This document shows positions 4,273 to 61,573 of a stretch of DNA of 64,000 bases, one piece after another (position 1 is the stretch's first letter; each line of letters opens with the position of its first letter). The position numbers and the translations under genes were made by a program. Source of the stretch: Sphingobacterium athyrii. Its GTDB lineage: Bacteria; Bacteroidota; Bacteroidia; Sphingobacteriales; Sphingobacteriaceae. The DNA is taken from NCBI RefSeq assembly GCF_003071065.1, contig NZ_QCXX01000003.1:326687-390686 (forward strand), written 5' to 3'. A model generated the notes under the pieces. It ran no database searches, was not told where the DNA came from, and saw nothing but the letters and a program-made list of their open reading frames with translations.

Positions 4273-4950
4273 TTAATATCCAAATTCTTCAAAGTTGGCC
4301 CGGCCCATTTCTATCCAACCATCCCAATATGACCGACCAGTAGACCCAGCTCCGTCTGGATCGATAGTATAAAAGTCAGCGATTACTTCAAAATGTTTTC
4401 TTGTATTAGTTTCGTTTAGGAAATGAGTTAAGCATGCCAACATCTTGTTGAATGACGAAAAGATAATATCGCTCAATCCCTCAAGCTCGCCATCATATTC
4501 GTGGTCATACACTCTGATCGCATAATCATTTTTTTCGACGGAGCCTCTCGTATCAAATACCAGTGGTCCAGTATCATTGCCTTCACTCGCAAAAGGAATC
4601 AGGCCAAGGGGGATAAGTTGTTCAGCGATGTACGAGTCAAGATTGGATATTATTTCCGCTAGCGGTTGGGCAGGCAAGGAGTGAGGAAGTCTGGCTATTG
4701 AACAGTCACACTCAGCAAAGAAATAACGCTTATGCCATTCAATAAAGCTAACAGGCAACGAAGCACCAAATTCTGATTCGAGCTTTTTATAATCATCATC
4801 AGTCAATGATCCGGGGATAAGTTTCCATTCATACCAGCCATCTTCGTTTACCTCGGATGCCATCATTTCTTTTGGAACATCCTCTGTGTAAACTGAACTT
4901 ACATCTCTGGTCAAATACGCATTAAAAAATTGTTCGATTTTGTCGGCCAT
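4273..4950 (-). CDS. SMI1/KNR4 (SUKH)-family protein
   Basis: 225 aa. The central region has the SUKH pattern: 'LTDDDYKKLESEFGASLP' (helix and 'LP.SF.EWH'), then 'LIPFASEGNDTGPLVFDT' and 'DHEYDGELEGLSDIIFSSF', ending in a helix. SUKH proteins are established as a widespread superfamily of immunity proteins against contact-delivered nuclease and deaminase toxins; no cognate toxin is in view. It lies 36 bp upstream of the HAD gene on the same strand, so the two may be co-transcribed. Confidence 0.8.
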   Translation of the reverse strand: MADKIEQFFNAYLTRDVSSVYTEDVPKEMMASEVNEDGWYEWKLIPGSLTDDDYKKLESEFGASLPVSFIEWHKRYFFAECDCSIARLPHSLPAQPLAEIISNLDSYIAEQLIPLGLIPFASEGNDTGPLVFDTRGSVEKNDYAIRVYDHEYDGELEGLSDIIFSSFNKMLACLTHFLNETNTRKHFEVIADFYTIDPDGAGSTGRSYWDGWIEMGRANFEEFGY

Positions 4951-5026
4951 TTGCAGTCAGTTTTATCGCTTTAAAAGTATCACTTTGCATTTAATATTAG
5001 TCAATTAAAAATTTGAAAAATGCAGT

Positions 5027-5611
5027 CTATTTAATCTGCGCAACATTAAAAAAATACTTGTCATCCTGGCGGGGATCTTTATATCCTTGAAATTCTTCAA
5101 CATGGTCTAATGTAAATAAATAGCCGTAGTTCGGCTCAGGGAATTCTCTTTCAATGGTTCGTCTGTAGCCTTCGATCTTAACCGTGTATTTTCCGGAAGG
5201 GTAGTGGAACTTGAAACCCTGATAAAGCTTATTGCCATCCAAAGTTTCATAGGAAATGTTTTCCGCATTAAAACTCTCTTTAGCAAGATCGGATAGAAGA
5301 CCTATACTGGCAATCCATAAACTATCTTCGACATTCAGGTTGAAACCTTGTTCTTCCACATTCTTTTCCCATTCATCCCCAAAAGCTTCGCCAAGGTTTG
5401 AAATTTTAATGCTGTACTTGGTTGAATCTATCGGTAAAATTGGAATCCAAACTCCTTTGGCTAGTGAATCGAGATATAATGTTTGATTTTCCTGAAAAAG
5501 TTTTAGGATTTTTTTGCTCCTGATTTTATTTTCCTTTAAAAATGCGTTTACTACATTTTCGGAAAGTAATGCTATACCATAACTCGAAACCGTAATTACC
5601 TTATCTGTCAT
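5027..5611 (-). CDS. Hypothetical protein, 194 aa
   Basis: A complete minus-strand ORF with no signal peptide or membrane segment. The C-terminal part has regular beta content ('FKFHYPSGKYTVKIEGYRR', 'GYLFTLDHVEEFQGY'), suggesting a compact sandwich fold. I do not recognise the family. It is 76 bp upstream of the SUKH gene on the same strand. It could be an immunity protein by context. Confidence 0.65.
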   Translation of the reverse strand: MTDKVITVSSYGIALLSENVVNAFLKENKIRSKKILKLFQENQTLYLDSLAKGVWIPILPIDSTKYSIKISNLGEAFGDEWEKNVEEQGFNLNVEDSLWIASIGLLSDLAKESFNAENISYETLDGNKLYQGFKFHYPSGKYTVKIEGYRRTIEREFPEPNYGYLFTLDHVEEFQGYKDPRQDDKYFFNVAQIK

Positions 5612-5802
5612 TGTCTGTATTAAAAAAGTAAAATATCTAGTTTGTTATGGAGATTAATATAGTAAAATTCCATATTTCAGGAAAGCTTCTTCCACTTTTT
5701 ATCTAACGTTTTAAGAATATTAAAAGCCATAAGAAAAAAATAGAAAACTCTTAAATTGCATTGAGTGCATTGGCTTTTCATCACAATAATTGGCTTAATT
5801 AA

Positions 5803-6192
5803 GTTGAAGCTAAACATATAGATTCCGATGTTGACCTGGGTTTCGCTGTAGAATAAGCAAGTGGATTTACAAAAGCATGAGATATTGAATCCATTATATC
5901 AGTAGAAGCTACATTAGCAGGATTAGAAATATACAATAGGATAAAACAAAAGTTAAAGAAACTGGGTGCAAATATAAAGCTTCTATATCCTGAACCTCAA
6001 AAGAAAATTAGTACATATATAGAATATCATTATAGTCATTGGAACCTGAAAAAGAATTTTTCTGGGCTATCTATAGAGAGCTTTTCTAAACAAGAATTAT
6101 TACTTATTCATGAGCTTATACAAGGAGAATTATGGATTGAAGAAGAATCCTTTGACTTGGAATTAATGATAAATAAAGTAGTAAAGTCCTAA
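5803..6192 (+). pseudogene. Decayed gene with two in-frame stops
   Basis: One frame reads as protein from about 5803 to a TAA at 6190-6192, interrupted by TAA at 5854-5856 and TGA at 5878-5880. Text on both sides of the stops looks coding ('DSDVDLGFAVE', 'EATLAGLEIYNRIKQKLKK', 'FSKQELLLIHELIQGELWI'). No ATG start is present after the stops. The family is not recognised. The stretch 5612-5802 holds nothing I can name. Confidence 0.5.
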
Positions 6193-6253
6193 TTTCAAAA
6201 CAGCTTAGTTGATAAAACAAGGGTAGCCTTTTTGAAAGTATCCTTACCTAAAA

Positions 6254-6883
6254 TCAGGCAAACAAATACAGCTGATCCTCTTCATCACTTAAAAAATGAC
6301 CCTCATTGCAGATGGTGTCAATCTCAAAATCATATAATCTGAAACCAGCTATTTTTAACGGATCGACACATTCTAGCTTTTGATCTTTGAGAACATATTT
6401 TTCGCGGAGATCCATCCAAAGCCTACCAAGGTAATTGCTTCCGACAAGATCACCATTTCCCATATTCTTTACACCCCAATATTGATCCTTATGAGATAAT
6501 TCTACAATTGACTTACCTGCTGTTTCCTTTAGAATTGGAGATAATTTATTCCAATGTTGAGAGAGCTTCACTTCTAAAACCCATCGCATTATCTTTAATT
6601 TAATCAAATCCCAGTCTTGTCTCGTATAATAAAGATATTTTTTGCTGATCATTTTAGCCGTCATAGGGCTTTTCTGAATTAAGATCTCATTTTGGGCCTT
6701 TGGAAATAAAGAATATCTCATGGCTTGATAGAGGGCCTCACTACTTGGAATAATGATATCATTAATAAAAAGAGGAAATTTGGAAGACATATTTGATAAT
6801 TCCCCAAACTCTTCATTTGTTTTAGAAAACATAACCACACTATCGATGTGATAAGTATTATATTTATTTGATTCCATTGACAT
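6254..6883 (-). CDS. NADAR-family (YbiA-like) ADP-ribose glycosidase
   Basis: 209 aa. Residues about 18-165 match NADAR/YbiA: 'FGELSNMSSKFPLFIND' (xELSNF-like), 'PSSEALYQAMRYSLFP' (sE.xyQaxK/R), 'KYLYYTRQDWDLIKLKIMRWVLEVKLSQH' split as 'RQDWDLIKLKIMRW' and 'KLSQHW', then 'KDQYWGVKNMGNGDLVGSN' and 'LGRLWMDLR'. NADAR enzymes cleave N-glycosidic bonds of ADP-ribosyl or ribosyl adducts; some reverse guanine ADP-ribosylation of DNA by DarT-type toxins. Its ATG overlaps the stop of the upstream gene (TAATG at 6885-6881), so translation is coupled to the phosphoribosyltransferase-like gene. A repair/antidote role to that partner is inferred. Confidence 0.85.
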   Translation of the reverse strand: MSMESNKYNTYHIDSVVMFSKTNEEFGELSNMSSKFPLFINDIIIPSSEALYQAMRYSLFPKAQNEILIQKSPMTAKMISKKYLYYTRQDWDLIKLKIMRWVLEVKLSQHWNKLSPILKETAGKSIVELSHKDQYWGVKNMGNGDLVGSNYLGRLWMDLREKYVLKDQKLECVDPLKIAGFRLYDFEIDTICNEGHFLSDEEDQLYLFA

Positions 6884-8067: not shown

Positions 8068-8230
8068 CTACGGTTTCCCGTAACCAATCTTTTTTATAAA
8101 CCACTAGCTTAGCCTTACAAAGTGTGTAATAATCTAGATAGTTAATATTGACAAACATATTCATTCAGCATAAATAATGTATAATAGGTTTGGATATTAA
8201 CCTTGCCCGATTGAAAAGAGTAAAGCCATG
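8068..8230 (+). repeat. Leader repeat, copy 1 (upstream of a YbjQ-like start)
   Basis: About 160 bp nearly repeated at 19097-19258 and 61034-61195. It begins with the palindrome TACGG-TTTC-CCGTA (8069-8082), runs through 'ACCACTAGCTTAGCCTTACA', and ends at the ATG of a YbjQ-like ORF. A TAGGTTTG at 8185-8192 fits the Bacteroidota -7 consensus TAnnTTTG, but no clear -33 TTTG lies upstream, so a promoter is possible, not proven. Confidence 0.7.
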
Positions 8231-8485
8231 ATAGTAACCACGACCAATTCCATCGAAGGGAGGGGGATTTCACGATATAATGATCCAATAGTAACCAATG
8301 TTGTCATCGGCACCACTGTCTTTAGCGATATAGCAGCGAGCTATGTGGATTTCTTTGACCGTCGCTCCACCAGCTATGAGAAGAAGATGCAGGAAATGTT
8401 TAAGCCATCACACTTATTTCAATGGAAATTTGGTAAGTTTAGAGCTAATAAAACAGCAACATATGCATCAGTTGTTTCTTTGTAA
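8228..8485 (+). pseudogene. Truncated YbjQ/UPF0145-like gene
   Basis: Residues 1-57 match the YbjQ-like protein at 61193-61573 ('[19 protein letters not shown]', '[19 protein letters not shown]'), then the text switches to unrelated sequence at about 8400 and stops at 8485. The UPF0145 fold needs about 100 residues, so half is missing. The 3' junction leads straight into the start of the next gene (8463), overlapping it in another frame. It is a recombination scar rather than a functional protein. Confidence 0.7.
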
Positions 8486-9432: not shown

Positions 9433-9801
9433 ATGGCAACGATTGATAGAAACATAGCCCCAATAAAGCAAGAAGTTGAAAATTTTTTGAAACAGATCGA
9501 TTTTAAGCTTCCAGAGGGATTTATTGAATTTTTTAAGGATTCAAATGGTGCAGATATCAGTTCAGATGAGAACTATATAGTTTTATGGGCTTTAACGGAT
9601 ATGATACAACTTAATAGAGATTATAACGTTGACGAATATGCTCCTGATTTTTTTATTTTTGGTTCCAATGGTGGTGGTACAGCCTATGCAGTTAAAAAAA
9701 GCACAAGTGATATTTATGAAATACCATTTATTGGAATGTCAAATGAAGAAGCTGTTTTTAAAAATAAAACCTTTTCAGAATTTATTGAGGGGCTTACCTA
9801 A
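9433..9801 (+). CDS. SMI1/KNR4 (SUKH)-family immunity-type protein
   Basis: 122 aa, the usual size of a minimal SUKH domain. The diagnostic order is present: 'LPEGFIEFFKDSNGADI' (LP..y..Fy...NG), 'VLWALTDMIQLNRDY', 'DFFIFGSNGGGTAYAV' (the phi-G.nG.G..y.. core), 'IPFIGMSNEEAVF' and a terminal helix. SUKH domains bind and neutralise diverse secreted toxins. The gene stands alone, with no toxin beside it, consistent with an orphan immunity gene. Confidence 0.85.
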   Translation: MATIDRNIAPIKQEVENFLKQIDFKLPEGFIEFFKDSNGADISSDENYIVLWALTDMIQLNRDYNVDEYAPDFFIFGSNGGGTAYAVKKSTSDIYEIPFIGMSNEEAVFKNKTFSEFIEGLT

Positions 9802-11311: not shown

Positions 11312-12019
11312 TTGGGACTACTTGATATTTTTAAACGACAAGACAAATCCAAAAGTGAAACTGAACAATCAGTAACACGGACAGATTTTAAAACTCAACT
11401 TGACATAGTTGAGAAAGATATTTATGCTAAACTAAAACCAGTCGGCTTTAAAAAAAACGGTAGGATGTTTAACAGACGGCTTGACGATGGAATAATTCAG
11501 GTAATCAATTTACAAAGTGGACAATATCCCATTGGTCAGGGGTATGAAATACCGGGGTTACGGGAGAATTTATACGGAAAGTTTGTTGTAAATCTTGGAG
11601 TATGTATCGAAAGCCTTTACAAATTTCAATCACCGACAGAAAACAAAAAGTATTACAAGGAATATGATTGCCAAATCAGGGACAGGCTTGGAACCTTATT
11701 AACAGGACAAGACTATTGGTGGACTATTACCGACGACAACAATAAAATCACACAAGAAATTATTGAAGGAATTGAAACGATAGCATTTAAGTGGTTTTCA
11801 GGTTTAGAAACGAAAGAAAAAATAATTTCTAATAATGGACATTTGCCGTATGACGCTACACCAAGAGCAAAGTTGGACATAGCACTAATTGTATGGTTTG
11901 ACGATAAAGCGAAAGGTTCTAAATTATTCAAAGATTATTATCACAGCATTCAACCAGCGAAATCAGCACACAAAGAGTATGTCAGAGATTTAGCAAAAGA
12001 ACTAAAAATTGAGCTTTGA
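11312..12019 (+). CDS. DUF4304-family protein
   Basis: 235 aa from a TTG start (11312); no better ATG precedes the domain. The N-terminus is 'GLLDIFKRQDKSK', then the DUF4304 pattern: 'LKPVGFKKNGRMFNR' (l...GFkk.g..f.r), 'VINLQSGQY', 'FVVNLGVCIE', 'CQIRDRLGTLL' and 'DYWWTI'. The function is not biochemically known; the family is frequent among putative immunity genes. A second member is at 14289-14903. It is followed at once by 12073-12633, probably in one transcript. Confidence 0.8.
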   Translation: MGLLDIFKRQDKSKSETEQSVTRTDFKTQLDIVEKDIYAKLKPVGFKKNGRMFNRRLDDGIIQVINLQSGQYPIGQGYEIPGLRENLYGKFVVNLGVCIESLYKFQSPTENKKYYKEYDCQIRDRLGTLLTGQDYWWTITDDNNKITQEIIEGIETIAFKWFSGLETKEKIISNNGHLPYDATPRAKLDIALIVWFDDKAKGSKLFKDYYHSIQPAKSAHKEYVRDLAKELKIEL

Positions 12020-14288: not shown

Positions 14289-14903
14289 TTAAATTAAACC
14301 CTGCTTTTCTGCATATTCTTTGAGTCTTGCTATTTGATATTGATTATAATTTTCTTTTGATATTTTCCTGTATTCAGTTCTGGCTTTATCCAGGAGCTTT
14401 AGCTCTGCGAAAAATGTCATTTTAGCGGCGGTGTGCAGTAAGGTATGTTCGGAAGTTTCCAGTTCGTTGATAAGCTTTTGTTCGGTGTTTAATTTTTCCA
14501 AGAATGGTAAAATAAAGCTTGAAATATTGTATTTCATTTCGACAATTAGTTCTTCAACATCTGTTGTCGTTGTTATATTATACCAAGTATCAGGTAGACC
14601 TCTCATACAGCCAATTCTTTCTCTTATCATACATTCAGGTTCAGTGGGAAATGCCGGAACATCTTTGTTACTATAGTTAAAGCGCGCTAACCAATACTCG
14701 GGTGAAAATATCCCGACATTTATGGTGAAACGGATATCGTCTTTGGTGCTATAGTAACTTTTTTGAATATTTATGATGTGACCGATTTTATCAAGCGGCA
14801 GATAAAAGTTGTTGGCCTTCTTTTTAAAACCAAGCGGTTTTAAGATTTCAATAAAACTTTCTTTTATGATTCTGTCAAATTTTTCCTGGGTTTCTGTTTT
14901 CAT
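14289..14903 (-). CDS. DUF4304-family protein
   Basis: 204 aa with the family layout: 'EILKPLGFKKKANNFYL', 'IINIQKSYYSTKDDIRFTIN', 'MIRERIGCMRGLPDTWYNI' and a helical C-terminus 'LLHTAAKMTFFAELKLLDKA'. It is diverged from the DUF4304 protein at 11312 (different insertions), so the two are unlikely to be a recent duplication. No signal peptide. Function unknown; immunity role inferred from the setting. Confidence 0.75.
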   Translation of the reverse strand: MKTETQEKFDRIIKESFIEILKPLGFKKKANNFYLPLDKIGHIINIQKSYYSTKDDIRFTINVGIFSPEYWLARFNYSNKDVPAFPTEPECMIRERIGCMRGLPDTWYNITTTTDVEELIVEMKYNISSFILPFLEKLNTEQKLINELETSEHTLLHTAAKMTFFAELKLLDKARTEYRKISKENYNQYQIARLKEYAEKQGLI

Positions 14904-15972: not shown

Positions 15973-16144
15973 ATATGTTCACGGCCCACCATAGCCGACC
16001 AGGCTTAAAAAAGGAAAATAATGAACTGGTTAGTGCCACTACCCAACTGAAAATTGTTGCTCCAGAAGGAAAAAAAAGAATTGGCTTATGTATATCACCA
16101 CTTATCATTTTCGTTAAGTCGCGATAAGTTTTTAAATTTGCTAT

Positions 16145-17035
16145 ATGCAATCCGATCTCACATACGACAAAGCGAAATTGCGAGAATTGGCTTCTTTGGT
16201 GTCCCATGCGTCATTCAAGAAGCTTTCAAGCAGCACCAATCAGTCTTCTTATATTAGGAAGATGAAAAAGTATGTGGGCTGGTATGAGATGACTGGAGAT
16301 AAACCCACGCAATTAGGAGATCTGATCGCATATTCTTATCAGATTCTGGAGCAGAATTACAGGCACGAATATATCTATAAAAATAAGTTGCTCAATGAAT
16401 ATGTCCTGAAGCATTATTCGCTAGACGACACCATACTGCTCAACGAGTTTCGGGTAGGGCAGTCCATTGCTGATACTGTTTTAGTCAACGGGACAAATAA
16501 AGTTTTTGAAATCAAGACGGAGCTTGATTCTCCTGAACGCTTAGAAAGTCAGCTGAACGACTATTATAGAGCTTTTACCGAGGTTTATCTATTTACGCAC
16601 ATTTCCTTGCTAAACAAATATCTACGAATACTTCCTGCTTACGTAGGCATATTGATTTATACAGAAGAAGGAAAGGTGTCTGAACATCGGCCTGCGGTCA
16701 AATACACTGCATCTCTTGATGCCAGCTATATGATGTCGTCCTTGCGAAAACCTGAGTATAGCCGGCTTGTAAAAGAACTGGTAGGATTTCTACCAGATGT
16801 TACACCTGTATTTTATTATCGGGCATGTTTGGAAATATTAGCGGAGCTGCCAATTGAGGAAGTCCAAGCGATGTATTGCCATATCCTAAAAAGCCGTATC
16901 GATCGACAAACTAATTTATATTTGACTCTTGGTGATGTACCTTCATTCGTCAACTTCTCTTTTTATCAGGCGAAATACAATAAAAAGTCGTATCTTACTA
17001 TGATTAATAATCTAAGTAAGAACCTATTATTATAA
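16145..17035 (+). CDS. sce7726-family protein, predicted PD-(D/E)XK nuclease
   Basis: 296 aa. The middle of the protein contains a restriction-like nuclease core: 'LLNEFRVGQSIADTVLVNG' (E and the catalytic D of 'IAD'), then 'VFEIKTELDSPERLESQL' (ExK motif with a following Gln), as expected for a PD-(D/E)XK fold. The overall length and the adjacency to a beta/sce7725 gene fit the sce7726 family. The gene is first of three plus-strand genes with spacings of about 7 and 10 bp, an operon. It probably cleaves nucleic acid; target unknown. Its last about 60 bp are duplicated upstream of the two 297-aa genes (44846 and 49079). Confidence 0.75.
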   Translation: MQSDLTYDKAKLRELASLVSHASFKKLSSSTNQSSYIRKMKKYVGWYEMTGDKPTQLGDLIAYSYQILEQNYRHEYIYKNKLLNEYVLKHYSLDDTILLNEFRVGQSIADTVLVNGTNKVFEIKTELDSPERLESQLNDYYRAFTEVYLFTHISLLNKYLRILPAYVGILIYTEEGKVSEHRPAVKYTASLDASYMMSSLRKPEYSRLVKELVGFLPDVTPVFYYRACLEILAELPIEEVQAMYCHILKSRIDRQTNLYLTLGDVPSFVNFSFYQAKYNKKSYLTMINNLSKNLLL

Positions 17036-17042
17036 AGTGCTT

Positions 17043-17981
17043 ATGTATTTCCCTTATCTTCGAGGTAAGCAATTTGAGTTAATTGCATTACGTGAACTTG
17101 TAGGACTTCCATTAAATCCAGAGCGGATCATTCCTATCATTGAACCTGTAAAGAAGAATGTCTCGTCACTAAAGACAGCGCTTAAAGCTTTAAGCGGGGC
17201 TGAAATCCGTGTACAGTTGGTGGTAAATGCTGAGCATGGAGAATTAAAAGGTGATAGTGAATCCATTTTTACTTTAATTGAAGAACTTAAAGATCTAGGT
17301 GTCACATCCATTATACCGACCTATTTAATTAAGACGGATCGTGATAGCTTCTTTGCGCAAGAAAGCATTAGGCAAAGAGGCTTTTCCGATAGCGGTTATG
17401 CATTGGTTCATCTTAATAAAACGAATGATATTCAATCTTTAAGCGATTTCACAAAGAATACAGCCTGTCTTTATAATACCATTCATATAAACAATCTTTT
17501 TGGTCTTAAGCGGAAGTATGATAACAGAGCGTTATTGAGTGATAATTTCAATAAACTTACTAAGAATACGGACTACATTGCGATAAAAGAAGAAGTATTT
17601 TCTACTGATTACCTTTACTTTCCCGATGAGGGATGCATCGCTTTTTCAGATTACCAAACTATCGGAAGTTCTTACAGTGAGGGCGGAGGTCCTGCTTATG
17701 CGGTCGCCATACATCTAACCTATAAATTGGAAGGAGATGAAGATATCCGTATTGCACACTTTGTATCTAAATCAAATGATGATGCATCCGATCCGGCGAG
17801 GAAGTATTTTGAAGCCTTAGAGGATTTAATACAATTTGTTGACGAAAAGAATATCCCCGACACAATAGCATTAAGAGAGTTTCGCAGACATTACCAGCAG
17901 CAATCTTTTTCGGGTTTGGGTGTTGTCAAAAAGCTTTCCATCATGCACCACATCGAATTGATCCAAGGGTTAATTTCCTAA
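17043..17981 (+). CDS. Beta-family protein (sce7725-like)
   Basis: 312 aa from the ATG at 17043 (a GTG at 17037 is also in frame); family members begin 'MYxPxLRGKQxEL', here 'MYFPYLRGKQFELIALREL'. 'IIPIIEPVKKN' and 'VNAEHGEL' follow, with alternating strand/helix texture suggesting a barrel. The family is named for a phage beta protein and includes sce7725; no activity is established that I know. It starts about 7 bp after the sce7726 stop and ends 10 bp before the RES gene, so it is the middle gene of one operon. A role as regulator, sensor or antitoxin is inference. Confidence 0.75.
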   Translation: MYFPYLRGKQFELIALRELVGLPLNPERIIPIIEPVKKNVSSLKTALKALSGAEIRVQLVVNAEHGELKGDSESIFTLIEELKDLGVTSIIPTYLIKTDRDSFFAQESIRQRGFSDSGYALVHLNKTNDIQSLSDFTKNTACLYNTIHINNLFGLKRKYDNRALLSDNFNKLTKNTDYIAIKEEVFSTDYLYFPDEGCIAFSDYQTIGSSYSEGGGPAYAVAIHLTYKLEGDEDIRIAHFVSKSNDDASDPARKYFEALEDLIQFVDEKNIPDTIALREFRRHYQQQSFSGLGVVKKLSIMHHIELIQGLIS

Positions 17982-17991
17982 TCTCAAAGCT

Positions 17992-19056
17992 ATGAATTGT
18001 TGTGTAAACTGTTTCGCAGACCAAGGGTTGCGGAATAGGATCGAAGCGGAATCCAATGGAAAGGGACTTTGTGATTTTTGTGAGAGCAAAGATGTTTTTG
18101 TTATAGCCTGTGAGGAACTATCTGATATCTTTGATGCACTTTTCGAACTTTATATCAATCATCCAACAGCTGCATTATCCCTCAAAGATGACAGGCCGGT
18201 TTCAATGCATGAACATTTAATCTGCTATTGGCCTAAATTGTTCGATAGCAACAAATTAAAATCCAAAGATGTAAAACAGTTACTCAACCAGATTGGTCGG
18301 GGTTGGGTAGGATTCAAGGAGTCATTATTTGAGGAACCAGTAGAGTTGCAGATCTACCTCAATGGAGAAGCTAACGACGATTCCCATCGGATGCAATGGG
18401 AGAAATTTGCATCCGAGATAAAAGAGGAGAACCGATTTTTTATAACCAATACCTTAGATTTAGAGCTGCTGGAATCCACCTTTAGCCGATTTGCAAAAAC
18501 CTATCCTGCAGGAACGCATTTTTACAGGGCAAGAATCAGCGATCGCCCACTTGAGATCGATGAGCTGGGTAAACCACCCAAGCAGTTTACAACACCAGGC
18601 AGGGCCAATCCAGTTGGCATTCCGTATCTATACATCTCTGAAAGTGAGGAGACGACCTTTTATGAAACGCGAGTTTCTTTGCATGAGTCCATTAGTATCG
18701 GCCGTTTTACATTAATAGCCCCTTTACAGATCATTTCATTAAAAAATATTGAAGACTATGGACCATTTGAAATTCAGGATCGAGGGTTTGATATCGAAGA
18801 GTTTATGTTGGTTCGATCTTATTTATTAAAACTTGAAGAAGAGCTGTCAAAACCAGTTCGGAAGCAAGATGTAAACCTTGATTATCTGCCTACTCAATAT
18901 CTTTGTGAGTATATTAAGTCATTAGGATTCCATGCGGTAGAATATCGAAGTGCGATGAAAGTCGGAGGCTATAATTTAGCTGTCTTTAACGATGCTGACT
19001 TAGTTTGCACGGGAGTAAAACATTATCATGTAAAAGGCTTAAAATACGATTGGTAA
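17992..19056 (+). CDS. Zn-cluster / HEPN-like / RES-domain protein
   Basis: 354 aa. The N-terminus has paired cysteines ('MNCCVNCFADQGLR', 'GLCDFCESKD') consistent with a zinc ribbon. A helical HEPN-like region follows (about 35-150). From about 165 the RES domain: 'GTHFYRARISDRP' (Arg), 'GRANPVGIPYLYISESEETT' and 'FYETRVSLHESISIGRF' (Glu and Ser), named for conserved Arg-Glu-Ser. Characterised RES toxins break down NAD+. It is the last gene of the three-gene operon and plausibly its effector; the paired upstream genes are not the usual Xre-type antitoxin. Confidence 0.8.
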   Translation: MNCCVNCFADQGLRNRIEAESNGKGLCDFCESKDVFVIACEELSDIFDALFELYINHPTAALSLKDDRPVSMHEHLICYWPKLFDSNKLKSKDVKQLLNQIGRGWVGFKESLFEEPVELQIYLNGEANDDSHRMQWEKFASEIKEENRFFITNTLDLELLESTFSRFAKTYPAGTHFYRARISDRPLEIDELGKPPKQFTTPGRANPVGIPYLYISESEETTFYETRVSLHESISIGRFTLIAPLQIISLKNIEDYGPFEIQDRGFDIEEFMLVRSYLLKLEEELSKPVRKQDVNLDYLPTQYLCEYIKSLGFHAVEYRSAMKVGGYNLAVFNDADLVCTGVKHYHVKGLKYDW

Positions 19057-19096
19057 TATACACATGTCCAGCTTTTTAAACATAGATTTAATAAGG

Positions 19097-19258
19097 GTAC
19101 GGTTTCCCGTAACCAACCTTTATTATAAACCACTAGCTTAGCCTTACAAGTTTGTAATAATCTTGAAAGTTAATATTCACAAAAATATTAATTCAAAATA
19201 AATAATGTATATTAGGCTTGGGTATTAACCTTGCCCGATTGAAAAGTAGCATGCCATG
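19097..19258 (+). repeat. Leader repeat, copy 2
   Basis: Near-identical to 8068-8230 and 61034-61195, beginning with the same TACGG-TTTC-CCGTA palindrome (19098-19111), containing 'CCACTAGCTTAGCCTTACAA', and ending at a YbjQ-like ATG. The -7-like element reads TAGGCTTG here. Confidence 0.75.
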
Positions 19259-19392
19259 ATAGTAACCACGACCAATTCCAAACTTCCAATGCTGCCCATG
19301 TTGTTATCGGCACCAATGTCTTCGATATAGGAGCGAGCTATGTAGATTCTTTTGGCAGTCGCTCTACCAGCTATGAGAAGAAGATGCAGTAA
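19256..19392 (+). pseudogene. Decayed YbjQ-like gene, copy 2
   Basis: Starts like the intact copy ('ATGATAGTAACCACGACCAA') but has deletions after codon 8 and between the next blocks, so the frame is lost. Recognisable blocks are 'GTTATCGGCACCAATGTCTT' and 'AGCTATGAGAAGAAGATGCA', with a stop at 19390. The following 275 bp (19393-19667) contain no gene I can support. Confidence 0.7.
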
Positions 19393-44780: not shown

Positions 44781-45871
44781 GCCCTACGATCTAATGTTTC
44801 CAGGACGTAAATTAAAGCGTTATTCAAACTAAATCCTATCTCATTAGGCGAAATACAATAAAAAGTCGTATCTTAAGCTAAATTAAAACCTATTATTTTC
44901 AAGCGTTCACGTATTTATATTATACTAAGTACCGCTTTAACTTTATTTTTATTGCGAATGAAAAGATTTCCTGATTTTGATCTTTTGCCTTATCAACCTA
45001 TAAGTGTTGAAGAAGTAATTGCCATATTTTTTTCATTAAAAGACGAAGTCCCATCTATCGTTAAAACACTGGGAGCAAGATCATTTAACGAAAGTATTTT
45101 TAGAAGAGACATAAATTTTGTTCGTGAGCTAGACGATTTATCCTATCTGATCCATTACGATCTTTCGCTTTCATCACAGGACCCAAAGCCCCTAGCTGCA
45201 AACGATCTTATCCAAAGTGAACAGTTTATCGCACGTATTAGCAGAGATAAGAAAATAGCCCCCGATACTGACAATAATGAGCAAACGGTTTTATATATTC
45301 TCACAAAGATCGTTACAGAAATCAGTTTTTTTTGGAACATGGTCGATGTCCATCAAATGAAAGTCGCCATTTTGGACGAAGATATATATAAAGCACTATT
45401 CCCGGTATTCTTAGATCAGGATCGTATTGCTTTGGGTAAGGATTTGCGCGAATACCATTTATTGGATATCCCTTCATTCAGCATGAATTTTGATCTGGCT
45501 ATTTTTTACAGGGCAGTTTTCCGGGCCTTAAAAAGAATTGGATATGAATTTGAATTCCGTTCCAACGATTGTGCCGCTATACTCGAACATATACGGGAAT
45601 GTAAAGACCTTCAACAGCGGATGGAAGCAGGGGAGGATTGTCAGGCCTTATATGAAAGCGAAATGGCAGAGCTGCGGGAGATATTAGATAGCTTTAAGAT
45701 CTCTGACATTGATCCATTGGATGAAGAAGCATTTTGTGCTGCCTTGAGCGAAGCATTGCCAAAAACAGAACTTGCCCCTTATTTTGATGTGTATGGTAAG
45801 TATCCCTATAAATACCCGCTGCGGGCCAGCGATTATAAACCAATATCGTAGTCTTACAGAAAGTTAATAGC
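44731..45871 (+). repeat. 1.13-kb direct repeat, copy 1
   Basis: Colinear without gaps with 48964-50084 (offset 4233 bp), then with one short indel to about 45871/50121. It spans the IS3 tail, a leader containing an sce7726-gene scrap (44846-44897) and a 297-aa gene. The two copies differ at only about ten residues of the gene. Confidence 0.85.
44958..45851 (+). CDS. Hypothetical 297-aa protein, repeat copy 1
   Basis: ATG at 44958 (an in-frame TTG lies two codons upstream). The protein begins 'MKRFPDFDLLPYQPISVEEV' and continues with helical segments ('FRAVFRALKRIGYEFEFRSN', 'LREILDSFKISDIDPLDEEA'). No signal, TM or catalytic motif is obvious. No family recognised. It has a near-identical paralogue at 49191 and a decayed third copy at 10555. 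The retention of the reading frame in both copies argues for selection. Confidence 0.7.
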   Translation: MKRFPDFDLLPYQPISVEEVIAIFFSLKDEVPSIVKTLGARSFNESIFRRDINFVRELDDLSYLIHYDLSLSSQDPKPLAANDLIQSEQFIARISRDKKIAPDTDNNEQTVLYILTKIVTEISFFWNMVDVHQMKVAILDEDIYKALFPVFLDQDRIALGKDLREYHLLDIPSFSMNFDLAIFYRAVFRALKRIGYEFEFRSNDCAAILEHIRECKDLQQRMEAGEDCQALYESEMAELREILDSFKISDIDPLDEEAFCAALSEALPKTELAPYFDVYGKYPYKYPLRASDYKPIS

Positions 45872-45873
45872 AG

Positions 45874-46158
45874 ATGCACCAGTTATTTCTTTGTCAATTT
45901 AAAGGAGAAGAGTATTTATCAATCAGCAACTTAGAAGATGTGATGGCTATCGTGGAGCGTTATAGACCAGAAAAATGCAACCAAGATATGAAGATACAAT
46001 TGACAATGATTGTCCTGCTGACAACATTAACTTTGACCAGCTGTGGACAAGATAATGATCATAAATCAGTACATCGTTCAGCAGATAGCGTTTTTATAAA
46101 ATCATTGAAAGAAAGAAAAATTTTCAGATTGCCTATTTTATCATTATCGTCCAAATAG
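45874..46158 (+). pseudogene. Chimeric ORF: shared N-terminal module joined to a lipoprotein start
   Basis: Codons 1-34 repeat the N-terminal module of the LRR gene at 8463 ('MHQLFLCQFKGEEYLSI', 'EDVMAIVERYRPEK'). At codon 39 (45988) a lipoprotein signal begins: 'MKIQLTMIVLLTTLTLTSCG', followed by about 35 residues ending against the convergent SUKH gene. Both parental genes are truncated. A short lipoprotein from 45988 is conceivable but doubtful. Confidence 0.5.
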
Positions 46159-46875
46159 TTTTGATAAAAATCCTTTTTTTATTGGCTTTTCAATTCCCCA
46201 CATTAATTCCGTTTCGTGTCGTTTTGCTTTGTCAATGTTAGGCCCAAATTTGCCCCACGCAAATCCGCTTTGAATTTGTTTGTGTCTCAAGTCTGCAATT
46301 ACAAAATTGTCAGGAAGTGATAATGCAAAGTTTTTCAAAGTTGTGTCGTTAGATTGTCTTGCGTTTTCAAGTTCAATAAATCCATCTCCTTTGCTCCAAA
46401 TATCCATGACCACTTTTTCGTGAATAATGTCAAGGTTTGACTTATTCCTATTTTTTCCAAAATCGTTAATGTGTTCTATAAACTGAGTTAAGTTGTCCGA
46501 GTGTTTTACGATTACTGCTGGATCGTGGCACACATAAAACACGCTTCTCCAACCTCCATTTTTGTCAACATCTAAAATCCAAAAATTCCCAAATCCATCT
46601 CCCGCTAGCAGAACTGAATTAGGAAAAAACTCTTCAAATCCAAATTGACCTACTCCGTCAAATGTGACTTCTTCAAGTCCGAAAAATTCAAAACCGCTTG
46701 CAAATTTTAGCAATTCTCTTATCTCTGTCGGAATTTGTCCTGTCGGCAGTCGTGTGGCTAATTCGTCGATCTCTTGGTTGGTCAAACCTCCTTTTAGTTC
46801 TACTTTATATTCGTCTCCATCTTCTGAAATATACTGTTCGGTCAAAATGGATGTTAGTTTTTCTGTCGGTGTCAT
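46144..46875 (-). CDS. SMI1/KNR4 (SUKH)-family protein
   Basis: 243 aa. SUKH core: 'LTNQEIDELATRLPTGQIP' (helix 'LP...iP.e...ll'), 'LLKFASGFEFFGLEEVTFDG', 'LLAGDGFGNFWILDVDKNGG' (G.G.G..w.ld) and 'DPAVIVKHSDNLTQFIEHI'. A C-terminal extension ('FGPNIDKAKRHETELMWGI') ends with a basic tail. An immunity role is established for the superfamily; its toxin is unknown. It lies inside the segment bounded by the 1.13-kb repeats. Confidence 0.85.
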   Translation of the reverse strand: MTPTEKLTSILTEQYISEDGDEYKVELKGGLTNQEIDELATRLPTGQIPTEIRELLKFASGFEFFGLEEVTFDGVGQFGFEEFFPNSVLLAGDGFGNFWILDVDKNGGWRSVFYVCHDPAVIVKHSDNLTQFIEHINDFGKNRNKSNLDIIHEKVVMDIWSKGDGFIELENARQSNDTTLKNFALSLPDNFVIADLRHKQIQSGFAWGKFGPNIDKAKRHETELMWGIEKPIKKGFLSKLFGR

Positions 46876-48963: not shown

Positions 48964-50121
48964 CCGTCCATAACGATATAAAAATTTAATCAAAAATTAG
49001 TGGAGTTCAGATAGCCCGACGATCTAATGTTTCCAGGACGTAAATTGAAGCGTTGTTCAAACTAAATCTCATCTCATTAGGCGAAATACAATAAAAAGTC
49101 GTATCTTAAGCTAAATTAAAACCTATTATTTTCAAGCGTCCACGTATTTATATTATACTAAGTACCGCTTTAACTTTATTTTTATTGCGAATGAAAAGAT
49201 TTCCTGATTTTGATCTTTTGCCTTATCAACCTATAAGTGTTGAAGAAGTAATTGCCATATTTTTTTCATTAAAAGATGAAGTCCCATCTATCGTTAAAAC
49301 ACTCGGAGCAAGATCATTTAACGAAAGTATTTTTAGAAGAGACATAAATTTTGTTCGTGAGCTAGACGATTTATCCTATCTGATCCATTACGATCTTTCG
49401 CTTTCATCACAGGACCCAAAGCCCGTAGCTGTAAACGATCTTATCCAAAGTGAACAGTTTATCGCACGTATTAGCAGAGATAAGAAAATAGCGCCCGATA
49501 CTGACAATAATGAGCAAACGGTTTTATATATTCTCACAAAGATCGTTACAGAAATCAGTTTTTTCTGGAACATGGTCGATGTCCATCAAATGAGAGTCAC
49601 CATTTTGGACGAAGATGTATATAAAGCACTTTTCCCGGTATTCTTAGATCAGGATCGTATTGCTTTGGGTAAGGATTTACGCGAATACCATTTATTGAAT
49701 ATCCCTTCATTCAGCATGAATTTTGATCTGGCTATTTTTTACAGGGCAGTTTTCCGGGCCTTAAAAAGAATGGGATATGAATTTGAATTCCGTTCCAACG
49801 ATTGTGCCGCTATACTCGAACATATACGGGAATGTAAAGACCTTCAACAGCGGATGGAAGCAGGAGAGGATTGTCAGGCCTTTTATGAAAGCGAAATGGC
49901 AGAGCTGCGGGAGATATTAGATAGCTTTAAGATCTCCGACATTGATCCATTGGATGAAGAAGCATTTTGTACTGCCTTGAGCGAGGCATTGCCAAAAACA
50001 GAACTTGCCCCTTATTTTGATGTGTATGGTAAGTATCCCTATAAATTCCCGCTACGGGCCAGCGATTATAAACCAATATCGTAGCCTTACAGCTTATAAT
50101 AATCTTGAAAGTTAATAGCAG
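48964..50121 (+). repeat. 1.13-kb direct repeat, copy 2
   Basis: Second copy of 44731-45871, ungapped through the 297-aa gene. It lacks the IS3 coding part but keeps the IS3 tail at its left edge, showing that duplication took place after IS decay. It again carries the sce7726-derived scrap (49079-49130). Confidence 0.85.
49191..50084 (+). CDS. Hypothetical 297-aa protein, repeat copy 2
   Basis: Differs from 44958-45851 at about ten residues, all conservative or surface-like (for example 'PKPVAVND' for 'PKPLAAND', and 'RMGYEF' for 'RIGYEF'). Same start choice. No recognised domain. Coding integrity is intact in both copies while surrounding DNA decays. Confidence 0.7.
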   Translation: MKRFPDFDLLPYQPISVEEVIAIFFSLKDEVPSIVKTLGARSFNESIFRRDINFVRELDDLSYLIHYDLSLSSQDPKPVAVNDLIQSEQFIARISRDKKIAPDTDNNEQTVLYILTKIVTEISFFWNMVDVHQMRVTILDEDVYKALFPVFLDQDRIALGKDLREYHLLNIPSFSMNFDLAIFYRAVFRALKRMGYEFEFRSNDCAAILEHIRECKDLQQRMEAGEDCQAFYESEMAELREILDSFKISDIDPLDEEAFCTALSEALPKTELAPYFDVYGKYPYKFPLRASDYKPIS

Positions 50122-53186: not shown

Positions 53187-53429
53187 ATGGCATCAACATT
53201 AGAAATGAGAGAAGAACGCAAAAAGTTAAATCAAGCAGCGAAACAGGCTTCTGAAATTGCGAATAAGGAAAACCGGGCTTTAGATCTATCGATCCAGGTT
53301 GTCGAGGACGGATATGTCGTTGAAAAACGTGTGGACGGGAGCCGTCAGATTATAAAAAAAATAGATCGGATAAAGAGTAAAATTAAATTAAAAAAAGGTA
53401 TTGTTTTATGCCTAGAGCCAAAAGGTTAA
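53187..53429 (+). CDS. Small protein overlapping a zeta-toxin-like gene, candidate antitoxin
   Basis: 80 aa, highly charged ('MREERKKLNQAAKQASEIAN', 'KKIDRIKSKIKLKKGIV'), a probable N-terminal helix plus a beta hairpin. A GGAGG at 53177-53181 precedes the ATG by 5 bp, unusually strong for this genome. Its 3' end overlaps the next gene by 22 bp in another frame, so both are co-translated. The arrangement is that of an antitoxin and toxin; homology to epsilon was not recognised. Confidence 0.7.
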   Translation: MASTLEMREERKKLNQAAKQASEIANKENRALDLSIQVVEDGYVVEKRVDGSRQIIKKIDRIKSKIKLKKGIVLCLEPKG

Positions 53430-54157
53430 GGGTATTTGCCGGTCCAAATGGTTCGGGTAAATCAACTTTATACAAACAGATCAGTAGCCAGTTTAATACT
53501 GGCTATTTTGTTAATTCGGACGAGATTGAACAGGAGATTGGTAAAACAGGCTTTATAAATCTTAGTCGCTTTGGATTGAAGCTTACTCAGGAAGACTTGG
53601 ATCGATTTCTTGGCCAGGATCAATCTATAACCTTATTACAAAAAGCCGAAAAATCTGGACATCCTATATCCATTGCTATTCGCGAAAATATGATCGTGGA
53701 CAAGTCTAGGGATACCCATAGTTATGAGGCTTCACTTATTACCTCTTTTATACGTTATCATTTACTCGAAAATGGTATCAGCTATTCATTTGAGACAGTA
53801 ATGAGCCATCCATCCAAACTGGAGGAAATTGATGAAGCAAGTGAAAGAAAATTTAAGACCTATCTTTATTTTGTTTGCTTGGATGATCCATTGATTAATA
53901 TTTCCCGGGTTGAAATTAGAAAGGAAAAAGGCGGCCATGGTGTGCCACAGGATAAAATCGTCGACAGATACTATCGTACACTTACTAATTTATTACCTGC
54001 AATTAAAGCTTGTGAAAAAGCTTACTTATTTGATAACTCTGGTGAAACAATGGTTTTGATAGCGGAAGTATTGCACGGCGGGATCACCATTTTATTGCCG
54101 GAAAACAAGCTTCCAAATTGGTTTATCAAATACGTTGTCAACAAAATTAATGAATAG
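53408..54157 (+). CDS. Zeta-toxin-like P-loop kinase
   Basis: 249 aa. Walker A 'LRVFAGPNGSGKSTLY' at about residues 7-22, then 'NSDEIEQEIG' (the D-x-I/A position used by zeta toxins to activate substrate), 'ISYSFETVMSH' (the catalytic-region F.sET) and 'RVEIRKEKGGHGVPQDKIVD' (the conserved R...GGH.vp..ki..R). Zeta toxins phosphorylate UDP-GlcNAc or related sugar nucleotides. The exact substrate here is inferred. Translationally linked to the small upstream protein. Confidence 0.85.
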   Translation: MPRAKRLRVFAGPNGSGKSTLYKQISSQFNTGYFVNSDEIEQEIGKTGFINLSRFGLKLTQEDLDRFLGQDQSITLLQKAEKSGHPISIAIRENMIVDKSRDTHSYEASLITSFIRYHLLENGISYSFETVMSHPSKLEEIDEASERKFKTYLYFVCLDDPLINISRVEIRKEKGGHGVPQDKIVDRYYRTLTNLLPAIKACEKAYLFDNSGETMVLIAEVLHGGITILLPENKLPNWFIKYVVNKINE

Positions 54158-61033: not shown

Positions 61034-61195
61034 TTACGGTTTCCCGTAACTAACCTTTTTTATAAACCACTAGCTTAGCCTTACAAAGTGTGTAATAATC
61101 TTGAAGTTAATATCTGTAAACATATTAATTCAGAATAAATAATGTATAGTAGGTTTGGGTATTAACCTTGCCCGAATGAAAAGTATCATGCCATG
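61034..61195 (+). repeat. Leader repeat, copy 3
   Basis: Third copy of the leader at 8068 and 19097, starting with TACGG-TTTC-CCGTA (61035-61048) and ending at the ATG of the best-preserved YbjQ-like gene. Its -7-like element is TAGGTTTG. Confidence 0.8.
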
Positions 61196-61573
61196 ATAGT
61201 AACCACGACCAATTCCATCAAAGGGAGGGAGATTTCACGATATAATGATCCAATAGCAGCCAATGTTGTCATCGGCAACAATATTTTTAGCGATATAGGA
61301 GCGAGCTATGTAGATTTCTTTGGAGGTCGCTCTACCAGCTATGAGAAGAAGATGCAGGAGATGTACAAGCGTGTTACCGAAACGCTCAAGCAGCGTGCAC
61401 AGGCGATTCGTGCTGATGCTATTATTGGGCTTAGTGTAGATATCGACGAAATCTCAGGAGAGGGGAGTCAGATGTTTATGATTACTGCGGTGGGTACACC
61501 AGTAAACAGGCTGCACAAGCCGCACTGGCAGACTTTGCCGATAGATGGGAATCCAAGTATCCTTATGCAGTAA
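61193..61573 (+). CDS. YbjQ/UPF0145-like protein with an IS-derived tail
   Basis: 126 aa. Residues 1-104 are a complete UPF0145-like domain: '[20 protein letters not shown]', '[20 protein letters not shown]' and '[16 protein letters not shown]', which is where the family normally ends. The last about 22 residues come from the IS256 remnant read out of frame. Domain function is unclear ('heavy-metal-binding' in databases). This is the intact member of three copies in the window. Confidence 0.75.

Follow-up and report, generated by a model that had tools for sequence, protein, structure and literature searches.

The three adjacent genes that we studied in Sphingobacterium athyrii are best read as an undescribed anti-phage defence cassette of the abortive-infection type, with a RES protein as NAD+-consuming effector under a nuclease-barrel pair, and we give this reading a probability of about 0.58. 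The cassette lies at 16145-19056 of the window, by which we mean the whole 64,000-nt stretch of S. athyrii DNA that was analysed. A role in defence is well supported by the genomic context, which is the basis from which we infer the function, and the reading draws on the strict order of the genes, their co-inheritance and patchy occurrence, their association with mobile elements and with genes for defence, and their intact active-site residues. The cleavage of DNA, NAD+ as the substrate, a physical complex, the direction of signalling and a phage as the trigger are likewise what we infer for the trio. An earlier, sequence-only reading had proposed a composite abortive-infection or toxin system consisting of a nuclease, a beta-family protein and a RES protein; the conserved cassette, the nuclease fold, the RES residues and the defence context in Escherichia coli all agree with it, but the term beta-family had to be given up.

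The ORF calls place the genes in a row on the plus strand, separated by 7 and 10 bp, the same tight spacing that had been described before, and in the profile search proposed at that time the sce7726, sce7725 and RES profiles all scored above their cut-offs. The features of the cassette are as follows:

16145-17035, plus strand: sce7726, 296 aa, match to NF033832
within sce7726, plus strand, from the AlphaFold2 model: helical N-terminal part (aa 9-90), PD-(D/E)XK core (aa 75-182), helical C-terminus
16445-16552, plus strand: codons E101, D110, E122-I-K124, D128 and Q136, predicted metal/catalytic site
17043-17981, plus strand: sce7725, 312 aa from the ATG, with an in-frame GTG at 17037
17992-19056, plus strand: RES protein, 354 aa, matches to PF18870 and PF08808
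17998-18081, plus strand: Cys cluster C3/C4, C7, C27, C30, Zn-ribbon-like, from conservation
18055-18450, plus strand: HEPN/RES-NTD1, aa 22-153, helical (PF18870)
18526-18999, plus strand: RES domain, probably NAD+-consuming as predicted from its family (PF08808)

Sigma-70-type promoter-like sites were no more frequent than expected by chance, and the Bacteroidetes-type -33/-7 promoter pattern was looked for and not found. All structure models were made of single chains, one protein at a time.

The arrangement of the genes is nearly invariable. A search with the sce7725 profile through the genomes of 84,980 species gave 391 relatives, and in 79 of the best 80, which were examined, sce7726 is found directly 5' and RES directly 3' of sce7725, with junctions that mostly overlap or measure at most about 12 bases. 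The one exception (L045) has an integrase in place of RES. As a check against clade bias, a second sample was drawn from four phyla with 395-398 genomes per phylum, altogether 1,587. Here sce7725 was above the cut-off in 30 genomes and the complete trio was present in 28 of these, a count that includes a few loci in which one gene is broken or runs off the edge of the stretch. Four centre genomes were positives known beforehand, and if they are left aside the trio was present in 24 of 26. The two failures were a locus without RES (L100) and a decayed one (L115). The genus survey gave a match in 3 of 61 genomes, one of which (L133) is the wreck of a cassette. It follows from the four-phyla and genus counts that the cassette is rare and patchy, and nearly always complete. 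The trio, earlier called an operon on its spacing, keeps the same order in nearly all loci of both samples and forms one conserved cassette, and the neighbourhood survey that had been suggested as a check found RES conserved beside sce7726 and sce7725. The near-fixed order of nuclease, barrel and RES suggests that the products act in a complex or a pathway with a fixed stoichiometry.

The distance matrices of 93 complete triads gave a Spearman correlation of 0.79-0.82 for each pair of genes, while the maximum in 1,000 permutations was 0.11, and a well-supported branch (100/98) separates the RES proteins of triads from the solo ones. The trio formed once or very few times and then moved jointly, and it is now found in bacteria of many phyla. 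One triad (L084) is found in a contig binned as Nanoarchaeota and is near-identical to copies in Sulfurimonas, which can be a transfer or a binning error.

The sce7726 protein scored 163.1 bits against NF033832 (curated cut-off 70), and its AlphaFold2 model, built on 44 homologues, has a pLDDT of 94.6. In the alignment of the 44 homologues the residues E101, D110, E122-x-K124, D128 and Q136 are invariant, which bears out the PD-(D/E)XK-like core (D, then ExK, then Gln) that had been noted from the translation. Structural matches of the PD-(D/E)XK type include 8epx PaqCI (Z 7.9) and 2okf XisH (Z 7.2). EndoMS, BamHI and XisH-family proteins were found as well, and Can2 and Card1 are among the weak structural matches. 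The Foldseek E-values are weak throughout; a sequence search of the PDB with sce7726 gave nothing useful. Judged by the fold of the model and by an E/D...D...(D/E)xK core on an alpha-beta-beta-beta-alpha-beta arrangement, sce7726 is a PD-(D/E)XK nuclease with predicted cleavage activity, and the structure prediction called for earlier has the nuclease fold in the first protein. Among the PADLOC models its sole match was a modest one to 'cll', and that these models name no such system is a point against the defence reading.

The second protein matches NF033831 with 288.9 bits over aa 2-309 (curated cut-off 60). The Pfam model Beta_protein (PF14350, gathering cut-off 27 bits), which gives a genuine Beta_protein 180 bits, found nothing in sce7725 even at E<=1, and genuine PF14350 genes are arranged differently, so that the beta-family label does not apply. 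A profile comparison aligned 95 N-terminal columns with a probability of 78%, and the two families are only distantly related. The AlphaFold2 model (pLDDT 95.0, pTM 0.92) has eight beta-alpha units, a predicted (beta/alpha)8 TIM barrel, plus a helical C-terminal part. Its best structural matches were TIM barrels of many unrelated enzymes (Z 10-12), and the PDB sequence search gave nothing useful. A specific enzyme chemistry was considered and dropped, as the fold search showed no preferred enzyme family among the TIM barrels. The residues R7, E34, N62 and D167 are invariant or nearly so and are placed directly after strands 1, 2, 3 and 7, and D203, H224, H239, K254 and H303 are likewise conserved. 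The C-terminal ends of the strands are the usual position of the active site in TIM barrels, and in the model the conserved polar face of sce7725 looks like the pocket of an enzyme or a ligand-binding protein. Such a barrel suits an enzyme as well as it suits the sensor or antidote that had been proposed for this protein.

Genuine Beta_protein genes occur in a second form of the pair. In seven of seven loci (L102, L126-L131) the PF14350 gene is arranged tail-to-tail with an sce7726-like gene and their 3' ends overlap; at L129 the pair covers 5001-6624. Between the two forms the homology of the nucleases is clear (hhalign E 1e-20) and the barrels are distantly related, but the Beta_protein genes are convergent with their partners and no RES gene was seen near the pairs in the seven loci. 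These pairs without RES suggest that nuclease and barrel are the common core, to which RES was added as an effector in the sce7725 branch. At L127 and L128 the pair is preceded by XRE-like and ImmA/IrrE-like ORFs, named by eye. The Beta_protein form is possibly a second, unnamed defence module.

The nuclease-barrel pair is thus seen without RES in the Beta_protein form, and also at L100 and L045, which is what one would expect if sce7726 and sce7725 were a stand-alone nuclease unit for restriction or defence, and RES a silent back-up that acts if a phage inhibitor blocks the unit. PrrC anticodon nuclease plays such a guard part for EcoPrrI. The pair could act alone in this way, which is a point against the defence reading as we have put it, and plasmid-borne solo relatives of RES that share its Zn-ribbon and NTD are also in line with a guard. 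However, nearly all sce7725 loci keep RES, and a guard would be expected to be lost more often. We regard this alternative as unlikely.

The third protein matches RES (PF08808) with 54.1 bits (cut-off 23.2) and HEPN_RES_NTD1 (PF18870) with 29.1 bits, narrowly above the cut-off of 27.4. All of its 45 homologues match RES, and 20 of the 45 match HEPN/RES-NTD1 at E<=0.01. The cysteine cluster, helical middle and RES domain that had been recognised by eye were thereby recovered as a motif and two profile matches. C4, C7, C27 and C30 are conserved in both triad and solo RES proteins; R179, R181, Y214, E225 and S320 are invariant, and N328 is conserved. In the PDB sequence search ParT was found, weakly. 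Members of the RES family are reported to cleave NAD+ by phosphorolysis, with ADPr-1''P as the product (PMC9503650), and for another RES toxin a depletion of NAD and NADP is described (PMC11535050).

In modules paired with Xre, RES domains are known as toxins (PMC9503650, PMC11535050), and it is conceivable that RES is a toxin here too, and that sce7725, sce7726 or both form an obligate protein antitoxin which has replaced Xre, with a role in maintenance or stress. The tight operon with the partners upstream of the toxin would suit such a module, and so would the remnants L125, L045 and L100, which have the partners and no RES. No XRE-type antitoxin had been noticed at the locus, and none is there: the partners 5' of RES are sce7726 and sce7725, and the flanks of the cassette are a DUF2711 gene and one unmatched ORF. 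Relatives of RES that have its Zn-ribbon and NTD were found solo on enterobacterial and other plasmids, so that a RES protein of this kind can do without an antitoxin of its own, and a natural deletion on a Glutamicibacter plasmid (L123) backs this view. There, IS6100 adjoins the last ~50 codons of sce7725 and sce7726 is absent from the stretch, while the RES gene is intact by sequence and nests inside the triad RES proteins in the tree. Since this orphan is known from its sequence only, it weakens but does not kill the idea of a toxin-antitoxin module or a plain antidote. A nuclease and a barrel with a conserved pocket also far exceed the needs of an antitoxin, and we find this explanation quite improbable.

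In the abortive-infection reading, the sce7726/sce7725 pair would recognise or process an item derived from the invader, probably nucleic acid, and would then release or activate the RES protein, a growth-arresting effector that would drain NAD+ so that growth stops. That a nucleotide product of RES (e.g. ADP-ribose-1''-phosphate) would instead be bound or converted by sce7725 and switch on sce7726 as the killer seems very improbable to us, as the homologous nuclease-barrel pair exists without RES in the Beta_protein arrangement, although the conserved polar residues at the C-terminal strand ends of the TIM barrel, the ADPr-1''P given by phosphorolysis in the RES family (PMC9503650) and the ligand activation of other PD-(D/E)XK defence nucleases (Can2 and Card1, both weak structural matches) all point towards it; if true, many bacterial phyla would have a new immune pathway in which a second messenger derived from NAD acts through a TIM-barrel receptor or enzyme. 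With the abortive-infection reading, the sce7725, sce7726 and HEPN/RES-NTD1 families, which are now mere names, would gain a function, RES enzymes would be counted among the immune effectors that target NAD, with no Xre antitoxin involved, and the question is raised what role a TIM barrel has in immunity.

The whole trio was found in 18 of 5,426 complete E. coli genomes, with about 97% identity to the copy in Salmonella houtenae. In the three E. coli loci that were viewed in full, it is located inside elements that also encode a relaxase and a recombinase, and it is flanked on one side by exchangeable genes. These adjoining genes are a KwaB-like gene in MS 115-1, where the cassette covers 4105196-4108064 of NZ_CP146665.1, a TIR, caspase and cyclase set together with a reverse transcriptase with phosphoribosyltransferase in 300444, and a KwaB-like gene with a TIR/caspase/Pycsar effector in AHS8C65RI. 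Defence genes and mobile elements beside the trio are the genomic link that is looked for in an anti-phage system. The immediate neighbours at the 80 loci, surveyed without a matched random control, include type III, IV and IIG restriction enzymes, KwaB, AbiLi, AbiD, MADS and integrases; of the two lines of evidence, the context in E. coli weighs more. A conserved mobile cassette that is intact in complete E. coli genomes can be tested in standard strains. On a Priestia plasmid (L124, 1313-8659) we observed, in a row, genes for an LXG polymorphic toxin, a small protein, a long Zn-ribbon RES protein, a phospholipase-D-like protein and a Shedu-like protein.

Compared with known systems, the trio shares RES active-site residues, a tight operon and a probable NAD+ chemistry with the RES-Xre modules, among them ParST, MbcTA and NatRT. 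Those modules have an Xre antitoxin, whereas the trio has a nuclease and a TIM barrel as partners, and its RES protein carries a Zn-ribbon and HEPN/RES-NTD1. HEPN/RES-NTD1 fused to RES, in some cases with an N-terminal Zn ribbon, is the exact architecture of gene 3 and is known from Anantharaman et al. 2013 (PMC3710099), whose passages on these proteins cover the domain fusion and not the sce7726-sce7725-RES cassette. With the NAD-depleting abortive-infection systems Thoeris, DSR2, SpbK and CBASS-TIR the trio has in common a predicted loss of NAD+ after infection, but these use TIR or SIR2 where the trio has RES (ART-type), and the sensing proteins are unrelated. The cargo of an integrative element in P. 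aeruginosa PA_HN002 lists RES, sce7725 and sce7726 together (PMC9394441), as a bare annotation with no functional interpretation. PD-T4-10 (Vassallo 2022, PMC9519451) was considered as an earlier report and set aside; it is a two-gene toxin-antitoxin of proteins without predicted function, and sce77xx and RES are unmentioned. The main text of DefensePredictor (PMC13092281) has no sce77xx and no 'beta family', and the 'RES' matches displayed are journal abbreviations. No paper treating the trio as a system was found in the open-access main texts that were searched. The trio may be novel as a multi-gene, probably abortive system with a NAD+-targeting effector and putative sensing parts, and an earlier description is possible.

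In a blastn comparison of the window with the locus of its closest relative in the genus, Sphingobacterium siyangense (L007), 16091-19193 is alike at 90.2% nucleotide identity. The rest that is shared consists of scraps of a downstream repeated sequence and one displaced gene, and the upstream flanks differ. The shared stretch of 3.1 kb implies a discrete mobile cassette. Plasmids were also searched at the DNA level with the cassette of the window, and no match was obtained.

The neighbourhood in the window looks like an array of orphan polymorphic-toxin immunity genes and not like a classic defence island, which also counts against the defence reading. SMI1/KNR4 (SUKH) and DUF4304 genes are found around the cassette (4273-4950, 9433-9801, 11312-12019, 14289-14903 and 46144-46875). 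Upstream of the RES cassette, at a distance of about 9 kb, there is a gene with a NADAR domain (6254-6883, 81.6 bits), a domain whose proteins act on compounds of ADP-ribose. A zeta-toxin-like gene at 53408-54157 is narrowly above the Pfam cut-off. Two near-identical ORFs of 299 aa without Pfam match, 4.2 kb apart (44952-45851 and 49185-50084), are apparently a recent duplication. A sequence of ~300 bp, ~80% alike, occurs three times in the window (19098-19392, 8069-8395 and 61035-61357), and the cassette stands directly upstream of one copy both here and in L007. The start of a YbjQ_1 gene (61193-61573) falls inside the third copy.
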